The notes under the pieces are model-generated. The model saw nothing but the letters and a program-made list of their open reading frames with translations, ran no database searches and was not told the DNA's origin. The translations under genes were made by a program, and so were the position numbers. From an uncultured Bacilli bacterium (GTDB taxonomy: Bacteria; Bacillota_I; Bacilli_A; RF39; UBA660), in the NCBI GenBank assembly GCA_947581835.1, contig CANPVV010000010.1, positions 1 through 34,746 on the forward strand: a stretch of DNA of 34,746 nt. Reading direction: 5' to 3'. Below are positions 3,403 through 7,094 of the stretch, piece after piece (the first letter of the stretch is position 1; the number at the start of each line of letters is the position of its first letter).

Positions 3403-4311
3403 ATGAAAGAAAAAATCTTTAATTTAATTATTTTTTTATTTATCCTTTTAACTATCATTATTATTTTTACCAATAATAAAGAAATAGCTACCACCATTAT
3501 CTCTGGTCTAAACCTCTTTTTAACAAGAGTATTCCCCTCTTTATTTCCTATGTTTATCTTAAATGATTTACTAATATCTCTAAATATTCCCTATTATTTT
3601 TATATTTTATTTAACTATCCCTTTACAAAACTATTTAACACCAGTGGTATTTGTGCCTATATTCTTTTTATGAGCCTAATTAGTGGCACACCTAGTTCTG
3701 CCTATATCATTAAAAATCTAACTTCCACCAATACCATCTCCATTTCTGAAGGAAACTTCTATCTTTATTTCACCTATTTTTCCAATCCTTTATTTTTAAT
3801 CACAATGCTAACTCGAATTTTTCCTCTAAATATCACTCTAAAAATTATTTTAATTCACTATCTAAGCAATATTATTTTATTATTTATTCTAAAATCTAAA
3901 TCTCCTAAAATTACCACCACCAATCCTCCCATAAATCACTCTAAACTTACCTCTACTCTAATTAAAAGTATTTCTAAATCTATGTCAACCCTTCTTGTTA
4001 TTTTAGGAACCATCATTTTTTACTATCTCCTATTTTTTATTATTACCAATATCTTTCCTCTAAACTCTCTTTTTAAAACTTTAATCGCTGGCCTTTTAGA
4101 AATAACAAATGGTCTTAATCTTCTAAGCTATCTAAATATTTCTCTCAAACTAAAAGAAATAATCGCCGTTGCCATTATCTCTTTTGGAGGTCTAAGTATT
4201 AACACTCAAGTAAAAGCTATTCTTGAAGATACCCCTCTTAATTTTAACTATTTTTTTAAAGGTCGCATCTATCAAACTCTAATTAGTATTATTATCACTA
4301 TTTTCTTCTAA
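3403..4311 (+). CDS. ylbJ: YlbJ sporulation integral membrane protein
   Basis: A 302-residue polytopic protein with about seven hydrophobic spans, among the few plus-strand genes. The conserved stretch SLISGTPSSAY (about residues 90-100) and the VFPSLFPMFIL region are typical of YlbJ, a nucleoside-recognition/gate-type membrane protein needed for sporulation in B. subtilis. It is shorter than the roughly 400 residues usual there. TTGGAG precedes the ATG. CATAAAAT at 3385-3392, just before the ribosome site, resembles a sigma-E -10. The 3' end overlaps the convergent pseudopilin gene by 33 bases. Transport function is unknown. Confidence 0.8.
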   Translation: MKEKIFNLIIFLFILLTIIIIFTNNKEIATTIISGLNLFLTRVFPSLFPMFILNDLLISLNIPYYFYILFNYPFTKLFNTSGICAYILFMSLISGTPSSAYIIKNLTSTNTISISEGNFYLYFTYFSNPLFLITMLTRIFPLNITLKIILIHYLSNIILLFILKSKSPKITTTNPPINHSKLTSTLIKSISKSMSTLLVILGTIIFYYLLFFIITNIFPLNSLFKTLIAGLLEITNGLNLLSYLNISLKLKEIIAVAIISFGGLSINTQVKAILEDTPLNFNYFFKGRIYQTLISIIITIFF

Positions 4312-4779
4312 CCCCATAAAAGTCAAATTAATATCATCATTAACCGTTGTATTAACTCCCCCGATCAATACCAATATATCAATATTTATAACATAACAAT
4401 TATCTTCCAATTTTTCATACACATAATTAATATCCAAACTATAACTAGCATTATTACTCTCCAAACTATAATCTAACCCATCATAAACAATTTTTTTAGA
4501 TTCTACTATCAAAGTCTTTTTACTATCCCTAAAATTTAATACTATTTTAGTCTGTTTATCTTCTTTTTGAATATCTGCCTTAACCAACTGTTTATCCATC
4601 AAATCTTTTTCAATATTTTTAATCAAAGTTGCTCTTCCTATCTCATCACTTGATGCATAATCTTTACTATTATTTATTCCCTCCAGCGCTAAAATTGTTC
4701 TAATAAGCAATAAAACAATAATTGAAACAATCACCAAACTAACCAAAATCTCTAATATTGTCATTCCTCTTTTATTCAT
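4279..4779 (-). CDS. Type IV pilin-like (pseudopilin) protein
   Basis: The start ATG 4779 follows GGGG by 7 bases and overlaps the upstream gene by 8 bases. It gives MNKRG^MTILEILVSL, a class III prepilin signal with Gly at -1 and Glu at +5, then a 20-residue hydrophobic helix and a soluble domain of about 130 residues. Such proteins are cleaved by a prepilin peptidase and assembled into type IV pili, competence pseudopili (ComG) or type II secretion pseudopili. No peptidase or ATPase is in the window. An upstream ATG at 4818 would place the signal internally and is less likely. The tail overlaps ylbJ on the other strand. Confidence 0.85.
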   Translation of the reverse strand: MNKRGMTILEILVSLVIVSIIVLLLIRTILALEGINNSKDYASSDEIGRATLIKNIEKDLMDKQLVKADIQKEDKQTKIVLNFRDSKKTLIVESKKIVYDGLDYSLESNNASYSLDINYVYEKLEDNCYVINIDILVLIGGVNTTVNDDINLTFMGLEENSDNNTN

Positions 4780-5218
4780 AATTAAACCCCATATTTGCAT
4801 AGCTATAAATATTATCATTCTTATATTCTACTATAACTCGATACTGATAACTATCTTTATTACTTAAACTCTTAACATAATTACTAAAACCTGCCCCATA
4901 TTCTTTTGTATCAACATTCCTTAAATCATACTTTGTTATATATATTTTCTCTATATTATATAATGAAAACAATCTATCACATTTATTATCAATACTCCTA
5001 CAATCTACCTCTTCTATATCACTATCTATATAATACTTATCCAACTCTAAATATTCTTTAACAAAATAAGTCTTATATATATTACTTACATTATCATACA
5101 ATATATTATTTTTATTATTATTAACCATATCTGTAAAAGTTCCATAAAGCATTAATAACGAAACTGAAAGAACTGTTACTACAATCATTGTTTCTAGTAA
5201 CGCAAAACCCTGCCTCAT
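4772..5218 (-). CDS. Type IV pilin-like (pseudopilin) protein
   Basis: ATG 5218 follows AGGTGGTGG and gives MRQG^FALLETMIVV, again with Gly at -1 and Glu at +5, then a hydrophobic helix and a domain of about 115 residues with two nearby cysteines (CRSIDNKC). It is translationally coupled to the second pseudopilin. The pair may be minor pilins of a competence-type or adhesive pilus; the globular parts do not resemble a family I can name. Upstream lies the pair of RNA genes with adhesin-like blocks, which may or may not be functionally related. Confidence 0.85.
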   Translation of the reverse strand: MRQGFALLETMIVVTVLSVSLLMLYGTFTDMVNNNKNNILYDNVSNIYKTYFVKEYLELDKYYIDSDIEEVDCRSIDNKCDRLFSLYNIEKIYITKYDLRNVDTKEYGAGFSNYVKSLSNKDSYQYRVIVEYKNDNIYSYANMGFNYE

Positions 5219-5292
5219 CAAACCACCACCTACTATAACAATTGTATCAAATTTCTCCTAAAAAGTCTTTATTTTTTACCTAAATTTCTTCT

Positions 5293-5345
5293 AAAATAAA
5301 AAACACTATTATAGTTCTAAATACAAGACTTAAAACATTAGTGTT
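5293..5345 (-). terminator. Terminator of RNA gene A
   Basis: AACACTA (5345-5339) pairs with TAGTGTT (5308-5302), with an inner GTTTTAA/TTAGAAC stem, then TTTTATTTT on the minus strand. The outer stem corresponds to AATGCTG/CAGCATT in RNA gene B: the same shape with different, compensating bases. Confidence 0.85.
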
Positions 5346-5427
5346 ATTTCTTTTGGCCTAGCCATTGATTAATCTTGTATCCTAATTCTTCTATACCAAG
5401 CCTTGACTTTGATATTTGAGTTCTAAA

Positions 5428-5503
5428 AGGATATTGGGCGCACACCATTAGTGTCATTCACGTTGTTGTTGTTGAGGTTGCCATTAGTATTCACATAGAA
5501 CAC
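5428..5503 (-). repeat. AAC-rich repeat block A
   Basis: A 76-base block aligns without gaps to 5800-5875 with 12 differences. On the minus strand it has four consecutive AAC codons and a GC-rich invariant end. Nine of the 12 differences involve A in one copy, the kind of bias expected from adenine-directed mutagenesis. Confidence 0.85.
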
Positions 5504-5573
5504 GTTAGCATTACTGCCGTTAAAGTTATACGGAGACATGACAACGCACCAGATACTTAGATTAACCATATTT

Positions 5574-5602
5574 ATTATATATCAATAATTTTTAATAAAC
5601 AA
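5574..5602 (-). promoter_or_regulatory. Promoter of RNA gene A
   Basis: TTGTTT (5602-5597) and TATAAT (5579-5574) are 17 bases apart on the minus strand; predicted start 5567. Same elements and spacing as RNA gene B. Confidence 0.8.
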
Positions 5603-5663
5603 CAATAATTTTCTACCTAATGTAAATTTTTTTAATAATTAGTTGTGTTAAACATAATGACTG

Positions 5664-5718
5664 ATAAATAAAAAATGCTGTTTTAAGTTTCTATTCTAAG
5701 ATTTAAACTATCAGCATT
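5664..5718 (-). terminator. Terminator of RNA gene B
   Basis: AATGCTG (5718-5712) pairs with CAGCATT (5680-5674), with an inner AGTTT/AAACT stem, then TTTTTATTTAT on the minus strand. A second small hairpin, TTAGG/CCTAA (5726-5740), lies just upstream, matching TGGC/GCCA in gene A. Confidence 0.85.
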
Positions 5719-5799
5719 ATTTTTTTAGGAACTTCCTAAGATTAATCTTGTATCCTAATTCTTTCATATTAAGCCTTAACCAAATATATGAGTTTTAAT

Positions 5800-5875
5800 A
5801 GGATATTGGGCGCACACCTCGAGTGTTATCCACGTTGTTGTTATTGAGGTAGCCATCACTATCCACACGGAACAC
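5800..5875 (-). repeat. AAC-rich repeat block B
   Basis: Partner of 5428-5503. Four AAT codons of block A or their equivalents are GAT or AGT here, and AAT becomes CGA near the end. Changes cluster at codon positions 1 and 2, while the last 19 bases are identical. Confidence 0.85.
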
Positions 5876-5909
5876 CACTCCCACCTATGTAGCAGATTAA
5901 CCTAACTTA

Positions 5910-5938
5910 ATTATATATTACTACTTTTAATTAAACAA
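5910..5938 (-). promoter_or_regulatory. Promoter of RNA gene B
   Basis: TTGTTT (5938-5933) and TATAAT (5915-5910) are 17 bases apart on the minus strand; predicted start 5902. Confidence 0.8.
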
Positions 5939-6086: not shown

Positions 6087-6122
6087 TTAAAAAAAAGCAT
6101 TTACTATGCCTCGTAAACGCTT
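6087..6122 (-). terminator. Terminator of rplU-prp-rpmA
   Basis: A 10-bp stem AAGCGTTTAC/GTAAATGCTT (one G-U) followed by eight T. The hairpin contains the rpmA stop codon. Confidence 0.9.
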
Positions 6123-6388
6123 ACTCTTTTTTTGTCACGTCCTAATCTTTCAAAACGAACAACACCATTTATTTTAGCAAACAAAGTATGGTCTTTACCC
6201 ATTCCCACATTATTTCCTGGATAAATCTTTGTTCCTCTTTGACGATAAAGAATTGATCCAGCACTTACTACTTCGCCATCACTAGCTTTAGCGCCTAATC
6301 TACGACCTCTTGAATCTCTACCATTTTGAGTAGAACCTTGAGCCTTAACATGTGCGAATAATTGAATATTTAATTTCATAAAATTCAT
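6104..6388 (-). CDS. rpmA: Ribosomal protein bL27 with cleavable N-terminus
   Basis: L27 of the large subunit reaches the peptidyl transferase centre with its N-terminus. The protein begins [12 protein letters not shown] followed by [21 protein letters not shown]^H is the Firmicutes-type Prp cleavage site, so mature L27 starts at His. The frame opens at ATG 6394, but only two bases separate that ATG from GGAGG; ATG 6388, 8 bases away, is the likelier start. The gene overlaps or abuts the end of prp, whose product removes this extension. It is last in the rplU operon, with its terminator embedded in the stop codon. Confidence 0.95.
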
Positions 6389-6390
6389 GG

Positions 6391-6684
6391 TCATTTCCTC
6401 CTAATCTCTATATTTTCTTTATAAGTTAATGCTAATTCCTTAAGCATTTCAATCATATTTTCTATTATTAATAAACAATATTTATTATCACCTATTATCT
6501 TTATTGTAAGCTTATCCTTTTCTTCTTTATACTCTAAAAACTCTTTAGAAATCTTTAAAGCGGCATTAATACTTGTAATAACAATACTTGATGCACTAGC
6601 GCATACAATATCTTTTCCATACTCATCATAACCCGCATGCCCAGCAATAATAATCTTATCTTTATTAATATCTACTTTTATCAT
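6391..6684 (-). CDS. prp: Ribosomal-processing cysteine protease Prp
   Basis: A 97-residue protein of the YsxB/Prp family, encoded between rplU and rpmA as is usual in Firmicutes. The expected His lies in [11 protein letters not shown] and the expected Cys in VCASASS, about 12 residues later. Prp removes the N-terminal extension of L27 before assembly; the matching LNIQLFA site is present in the rpmA product. Its TGA stop overlaps the upstream rpmA ATG, and its last codons form the rpmA ribosome site. Confidence 0.93.
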
Positions 6685-6686
6685 AA

Positions 6687-6983
6687 TTAACTAATTTTCT
6701 TAACAACTAATTTAGTATATGGTTGTCTATGACCTTGAGTTTTACGATATTTTTTCTTTGGACGATATTTAAATACTTTGATTTTTTTAGCACGTCCATG
6801 CTTCTCAACTGTACAAACAACCTTTGCTCCACTTACATATGGACTTCCAACTTTATCACCTACAGCCAAAACTTCTGTAAAAGTAACTTCTGTTCCTGCC
6901 TCATTAGGTAATTTCTCAACATATATTATATCGCCTTCACTAACATAATATTGTTTGCCACCTGTTGTAAATACTGCTTTCAT
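6687..6983 (-). CDS. rplU: Ribosomal protein bL21
   Basis: A 98-residue bL21 beginning [18 protein letters not shown], with the family C-terminus [15 protein letters not shown] that binds 23S rRNA. The start ATG 6983 lies 7 bases after GGAGG; the frame is open further upstream, but those codons include the ribosome site. It is the first gene of rplU-prp-rpmA, preceded by a strong promoter and a leader of about 110 nt, suggesting ribosomal autoregulation. Confidence 0.96.
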
Positions 6984-7094
6984 ATTCATTCCTCCTTTAT
7001 AAATTTTAAGACGCACCATAATGGTAAAAGCAAAACTTTTTTAATTAACCATTTCTGAGTGGTTTTTTACGAATACACAAAAAAGCATTTCGCG
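6984..7094 (-). promoter_or_regulatory. rplU leader, probable L21-type leader RNA
   Basis: About 110 nt separate the predicted transcription start from rplU. It contains AACCA/TGGTT (about 7041-7058) and ACCAT/ATGGT hairpins near GGTGCG, then the GGAGG site. Firmicutes rplU commonly carries an L21 leader motif here. I could not match the full consensus. Confidence 0.5.

Follow-up and report, generated by a model that had tools for sequence, protein, structure and literature searches.

The window analyzed here is a whole contig (C10, 34,746 nucleotides) of a 1.29-Mb genome that is 99% complete in 59 contigs. Between the rplU-prp-rpmA genes and two prepilin-like genes it contains two minus-strand RNA units, a and b (Table 1). 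Each unit is composed, in order, of a TATAAT box, the sequence GGTTAATCT, a leader, an AAC/AAT-rich core, GGTGTGCGCCCAATATCCT, a hairpin, AGGATACAAGATTAATC, and a terminator. Pattern, promoter, and covariation evidence bear out the first-pass annotation in its placement of two transcription units with a promoter, closing helix, and terminator, but not in the single 76-base core that it assigned to both, since the cores with their anchor span about 101 bases in RNA a and about 68 in RNA b. Its translation of the core into a protein ending GVRPIS is not an expressed product, since a stop codon in the same frame separates the helix from the core in 69 of 93 units; a protein-coding reading of the cores was rejected on these stops and on the lack of a consistent start. 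A stretch of 34–39 bases around TTTATTTATCAGTCATTATGTTTAACACAAC on contig C17 (two places, L028:1501-1534 and L030:1501-1539) is shared with the spacer between RNAs a and b; these partial matches were rejected as template repeats (TRs), the common stretch being short and outside the core. The two prepilin-like genes, which adjoin the RNA units, overlap and carry an N-methylation motif.

Table 1. Features of the window, with the evidence for each
Feature	Position	Strand	Basis
TR-RNA gene a, predicted transcript 270 nt	5298..5567	-	covariance-model match C10:5367-5446:-, folding
-10 box TATAAT, RNA a	5574..5579	-	promoter statistics over units
Closing helix P1 5' strand GGTTAATCT, RNA a	5559..5567	-	compensatory changes, 93 units
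Template core, RNA a	5447..5536	-	most A-rich among the genome's TRs; top match for several VRs
Anchor GGTGTGCGCCC, IMH-like 3' end of repeat, RNA a	5436..5446	-	shared with VRs
P2/P3 module, RNA a	5378..5433	-	TATCCT 5433-5428 with AGGATA 5383-5378, hairpin between; covariation
Closing helix P1 3' strand AGATTAATC, RNA a	5367..5375	-	compensatory changes, 93 units
Terminator-like hairpin and T run, RNA a	about 5298..5345	-	covariation of stem, folding
TR-RNA gene b, predicted transcript 232 nt	5671..5902	-	covariance-model match C10:5740-5818:-, folding
-10 box TATAAT, RNA b	5910..5915	-	promoter statistics over units
Closing helix P1 5' strand, RNA b	5894..5902	-	compensatory changes across units
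Template core, RNA b, 5'-truncated, starts at GTGTTC	5819..5875	-	sequence comparison
Anchor GGTGTGCGCCC, RNA b	5808..5818	-	pattern search
P2/P3 module and P1 3' strand (5748-5740), RNA b	5740..5805	-	covariation
Terminator-like hairpin and T run, RNA b	about 5671..5718	-	folding, sequence
rplU-prp-rpmA genes	6104..7019
Two overlapping prepilin-like genes	4279..5221	-	N-methylation motif
L21 leader	6999..7074	-	score just over the cut-off
Class B RNase P RNA, truncated where the contig ends	34427..34746	-

Eleven units are present in the genome, on contigs C9, C10 (two), C15, C23, C25 (five, in tandem and about 300 bp apart), and C36; the pattern AGGATATTGGGCGCACACC, allowing up to 3 mismatches, likewise has 11 occurrences, compared with 0 for a reversed control. 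A covariance model (R1) identifies 211 copies in 32 of the 36 genomes of the genus, all of which appear to be metagenome assemblies, with up to 25 copies in each, and 0 copies among 24 genomes of other genera. The site in the window is partly conserved, with units downstream of rpmA also in G027, G028, and G004. A perfect TATAAT ending 4–9 nt (mostly 6–7) upstream of the helix is found in 59 of 92 units, where 2.8 would be expected. Several units without a perfect TATAAT begin within a few bases of what appears to be the stop of the gene before them, which suggests that they are supplied by read-through.

Single-sequence folding of RNAs a and b is only mildly better than that of shuffled sequences (z of -1.5 and -2.0), and the case for structure therefore depends on comparing units. 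Pairing in the closing helix P1 is kept in 91–93 of 93 units at each base pair, with compensatory pair changes such as GGTTAGTTT/AAACTAATC, GGTTTATCT/AGATAAATC, and GGTATATCT/AGATATATC. The P3 hairpin has paired cells and a covariation score above those of every shuffle, and the terminator stem also covaries; P2 is invariant and therefore uninformative for covariation.

The first-pass annotation likened the cores to the TRs of diversity-generating retroelements (DGRs) and reported no reverse transcriptase (RT) nearby. That is correct for the window, but contig C38 encodes a DGR-type RT together with Avd. This RT (372 aa; RVT_1 E 2e-19; PHROG RT E 7e-82), the one RVT_1 protein in the genome, is intact, contains the motifs YMDD and IGNMTSQ, and has as its best solved match 8ub7, an entry titled just "Reverse transcriptase" that we take to be the BPP-1 bRT complex. 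It belongs to a three-gene operon, conserved in the genus, with a MutS domain I-like protein (135–140 aa) and an Avd-like protein (119 aa; bAvd PF22296 E 5e-10; PHROG "Avd protein of DGR" E 1e-15). The short MutS_I-like protein is encoded first (L031:7755-8162, minus strand, on C38) and is kept with Avd and RT genus-wide. A TR beside the RT operon is a usual, although not obligatory, feature of DGRs; pattern search, repeat search, and the covariance model gave none on C38 or in the RT flanks of relatives within the genus, covered to about 5 kb where the contig allows. In some genomes (G009, G013, and G033) TRs occur without an intact cognate RT. A retron was rejected as an alternative given that the RT scores 38 bits against retron_St85, whose cut-off is 235 bits, and that the RNA is apart from the RT and carries a TR core. 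Phage origin was likewise rejected, a pattern scan of viral contigs having returned no matches.

The first-pass annotation had also proposed a genome search for genes ending with GGTGTGCGCCC, and these were found as well. About 23 coding variable repeats (VRs) in about 20 target genes carry the anchor followed by GTAATAAA, and relatives have up to 42 coding VRs per genome by pattern. Eleven translated targets are 436–632 aa long, most with an N-terminal hydrophobic segment, and have the VR near the C-terminus, ending GVRPVINL; three of five targets tested have weak matches, below the cut-off, to DUF6273. As in DGRs, the VRs are located in a predicted C-terminal lectin-like domain and share a 3' anchor.

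We compared TRs with the VRs that carry their genome's TR anchor in three genomes (the window's own, G000, and G020 and G026), with a base-neutral score used to pick the best template for each VR. Of 742 TR adenine cells, 345 (46.5%) are changed, compared with 161 of 1692 (9.5%) for the other bases (C 62/578, G 50/505, T 49/609), and just 77 of the 506 mismatches have A on the VR side. VRs with a foreign or drifted anchor mostly have more non-A differences, as expected if homing needs the anchor. The anchor also co-varies between RNA genes and VRs, being GGTGTGCGCCC in the window's genome, GGTGTGCGTCC in G026, G021, and G030, and GGTTTGCGCCC in G019, G032, and G034. The VRs that prefer their own genome's TRs number 12 of 12 in G020, 2 of 4 in G026, and 3 of 7 in the window's genome; this last, weak preference may reflect a template missing from the draft assembly or old targeting. 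The non-A differences (8–11%) are more than a VR recently copied from its template would carry and count against the use of the units as trans templates. No stem over 6 bp occurs within 60 bp of 22 VRs, and the hairpins downstream are mostly no better than those of shuffled sequences.

Based on these comparisons, we propose, with a probability of roughly 0.87, that each unit is an autonomous gene whose product is a DGR template RNA, and that these RNAs act in trans as a dispersed, evolving set. Trans-acting templates were one possibility raised in the first-pass annotation, and the C38 RT and Avd together with the anchor-ending coding regions and their adenine-biased differences support it; the absence of both from the genome had been named there as grounds for refutation. 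The evidence, all of it at the level of sequence, consists of the parts, the TR-VR pairing, the adenine bias, the conserved structure, the separate RT, and the cis ancestors described below; from it we infer transcription, priming, homing, trans use, template switching, and the roles of the proteins, MutS_I included. The predicted system has the core attributes of a DGR, namely RT, Avd, adenine-biased TR/VR differences, and a shared anchor, and it departs from the DGR norm in the location, autonomy, and number of its putative templates and in lacking a phage-type VR hairpin.

In the cycle that we envisage, each RNA would begin with the closing-helix GG, giving the 5' end GGTTAATC, reach a length of 230–270 nt, and fold so that its 3' module (P2 TATCCT/AGGATA and the P3 hairpin) recruits a single RT-Avd complex, which the MutS_I protein probably joins, all three proteins being made from C38. 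Priming of cDNA would occur near the repeat end and random bases would be placed opposite template adenines, after which the cDNA would replace the matching segment in any of the dispersed genes for surface proteins, about 20 in number, that have a TCTCCG edge at the 5' side and the anchor GGTGTGCGCCC at the 3' side in common. Given eleven different templates, template switching could change the framework of a target and adenine mutagenesis its contact residues, and over time the template cores may themselves gain diversified sequence, either because cDNA also homes into TRs or because TRs and VRs exchange sequence.

In the BPP-1 DGR, bRT-Avd is recruited by a structured spacer RNA 3' of the TR, which also provides the adenine used for priming, a 5' motif stops cDNA synthesis (PMC12875486), and a hairpin is required downstream of the VR (PMC3240598). 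By analogy, the P2/P3 module would correspond to the spacer and the leader to the stop. The system described here resembles that of BPP-1 in its RT and Avd homologs, adenine-directed TR-to-VR differences, GC-rich 3' anchor, and structured RNA 3' of the TR. However, BPP-1 has one TR, located between avd and brt in a single transcript, whereas here each TR is a separate gene with a promoter and a terminator to itself, a genome has many of them, away from the RT, and the VR hairpin is not seen. Dispersed targets have been described in cyanobacteria (PMC7517822) and Treponema denticola (PMC4891356), and trans use of another locus's TR has been proposed for Thiohalocapsa PB-PSB1 (PMC10907252). These systems are similar in that one RT/TR set has several dispersed VRs; unlike the system in this genus, with its scattered templates and an RT locus that has no TR, they keep at least one TR in the DGR locus. 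Several TRs per DGR are also on record, within a predicted DGR (PMC6642488); in the parts of that study available to us dispersed autonomous RNA genes are not described, and the tandem cis TRs of L152 and L157, discussed below, are closer to it.

The nearest RTs from beyond the genus are arranged as in an ordinary DGR. A VR and a TR lie immediately upstream of the RT in L163; L160 has VRs and, beside the RT, a TR with the RNA module after it (R1 match of 47 bits, E 5e-8); and in L158 a TR and module are found upstream of Avd. Two loci have more than one TR upstream of Avd and RT: L152 has four tandem TR units (L152:360-1800), with a coding VR that matches unit 3 specifically (A changed 5/27, other bases 2/92), and in L157 three TR cores and a single complete 3' module are present (L157:488-1100), with TR/VR differences at 15/29 adenines and 3/76 other bases. 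The 3' module of the window RNAs thus has a homolog in the cis DGR RNA of relatives, which qualifies the earlier suggestion of a new RNA family: no Rfam family reaches the gathering score over the window units and the covariance model detects copies genus-wide, but this module is shared more widely. The arrangement suggests that the templates escaped from the RT operon in this genus. The simplest order would be a series from a single cis TR to a cis tandem array and then to dispersal in the genus, with the arrays of L152 and L157 as the likely intermediate.

The same relatives bear on whether the units could be regulatory small RNAs that borrowed a VR-like segment and have a role other than templating. 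Such RNAs would be autonomous, structured, multicopy, genus-restricted, and without an Rfam match, as the units are; however, the same module adjoins TR and RT in the outgroup DGRs, the core tracks the VRs, and no other target is apparent, and we regard this alternative as extremely improbable. Somewhat less improbable, although still quite unlikely, is that the units are relic templates, which formerly belonged to a functional cis DGR and are now scattered by duplication and unused. Several cores are truncated or poor in adenine (RNA b, and G030 units with VR-like adenine content), and some genomes keep units although the cognate RT is broken or absent. Disuse is difficult to reconcile with P1 and P3 pairing kept through compensatory change, promoters retained in 59 of 92 units, an anchor that changes along with the VRs across three groups of species, and an RT that is intact in the window's genome.

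The first-pass annotation also considered silent cassettes, which would supply variation to surface genes through standard homologous recombination with no RNA step, as in pilin and vls conversion. There, too, an unexpressed donor library feeds expressed surface genes, and in this sense the cores do act as a sequence reservoir; the short common ends, the tandem array on C25, and the derived states shared by vC4 with C25e and by vC9 with C25b are all compatible with recombination. Faithful recombination, however, would not yield 46.5% change at adenines and 9.5% at other bases, and it leaves the promoter, closing helix, covarying hairpin, and RT-Avd operon unexplained. Unlike pilin and vls donors, the units have RNA structure and adenine-directed change, and the genome has an RT system. 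The adenine bias, RT/Avd, and RNA structure argue for copying through RNA, beyond silent cassettes, and we consider recombination as the whole explanation very unlikely.

Within the framework of trans-acting template RNAs, the templates themselves appear to change. When TR cores are compared among themselves, consensus adenines differ in 28.7% of cases and other bases in 12.3% (odds ratio 2.9), whereas in the flanking RNA module the odds ratio for adenine versus other change is 1.3. The codon following GTGTTC is TAT, CGT, ATT, AAT, CTT, GTT, TTT, GCT, or others, nearly always with T in the third position, which is kept though the units are non-coding, while positions 1 and 2 take many states. 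The orthologous units G003_5, G014_4, and G015_2 have an identical leader and cores that differ only at the codon after GTGTTC and at the last two. Units 1 and 3 of L157 are identical in their leaders and 3' ends, and the core of unit 1 is changed at 18 of 40 adenines and 15 of 105 other bases. These patterns point to template cores taking up diversified sequence, presumably via retrohoming into TRs or recombination or exchange with VRs. We are tentative, at slightly less than even odds, in speculating that the retroelement itself rewrites the template set, with mutagenized cDNA or VR sequence entering the TR genes. If so, selected variants would be stored as new templates whose remaining adenines are still changeable, and this heritable, evolving repertoire would be combined with template switching.

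Because DGR surveys such as PMC8144416 search for repeats around the RT, they would overlook an RT that has free-standing templates and no TR close by, or would count it as incomplete. We found no description of dispersed autonomous template genes in the literature, which is weak evidence given that subscription papers and preprints were outside the search. Confirmation of our proposal would show that a DGR can separate its RNA from the operon and, in gut bacteria with very small genomes, expand it to a combinatorial set of templates, with one RT serving many templates and targets and with templates that evolve. As naturally minimal, stand-alone template RNAs with a covariation-supported structure, the units would also be useful for the study of RT-Avd recognition.

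Two genomes differ from this general picture. G030 contains 25 RNA units (C20 array, L245/L222) and few VRs, and the eight cores examined have adenines as few as in VRs; its units are perhaps exhausted templates or put to a different use. In G031 (L114-L121), nearly all template units are without a good TATAAT and the RT match is only distant (about 40%); these units may be served by another RT.
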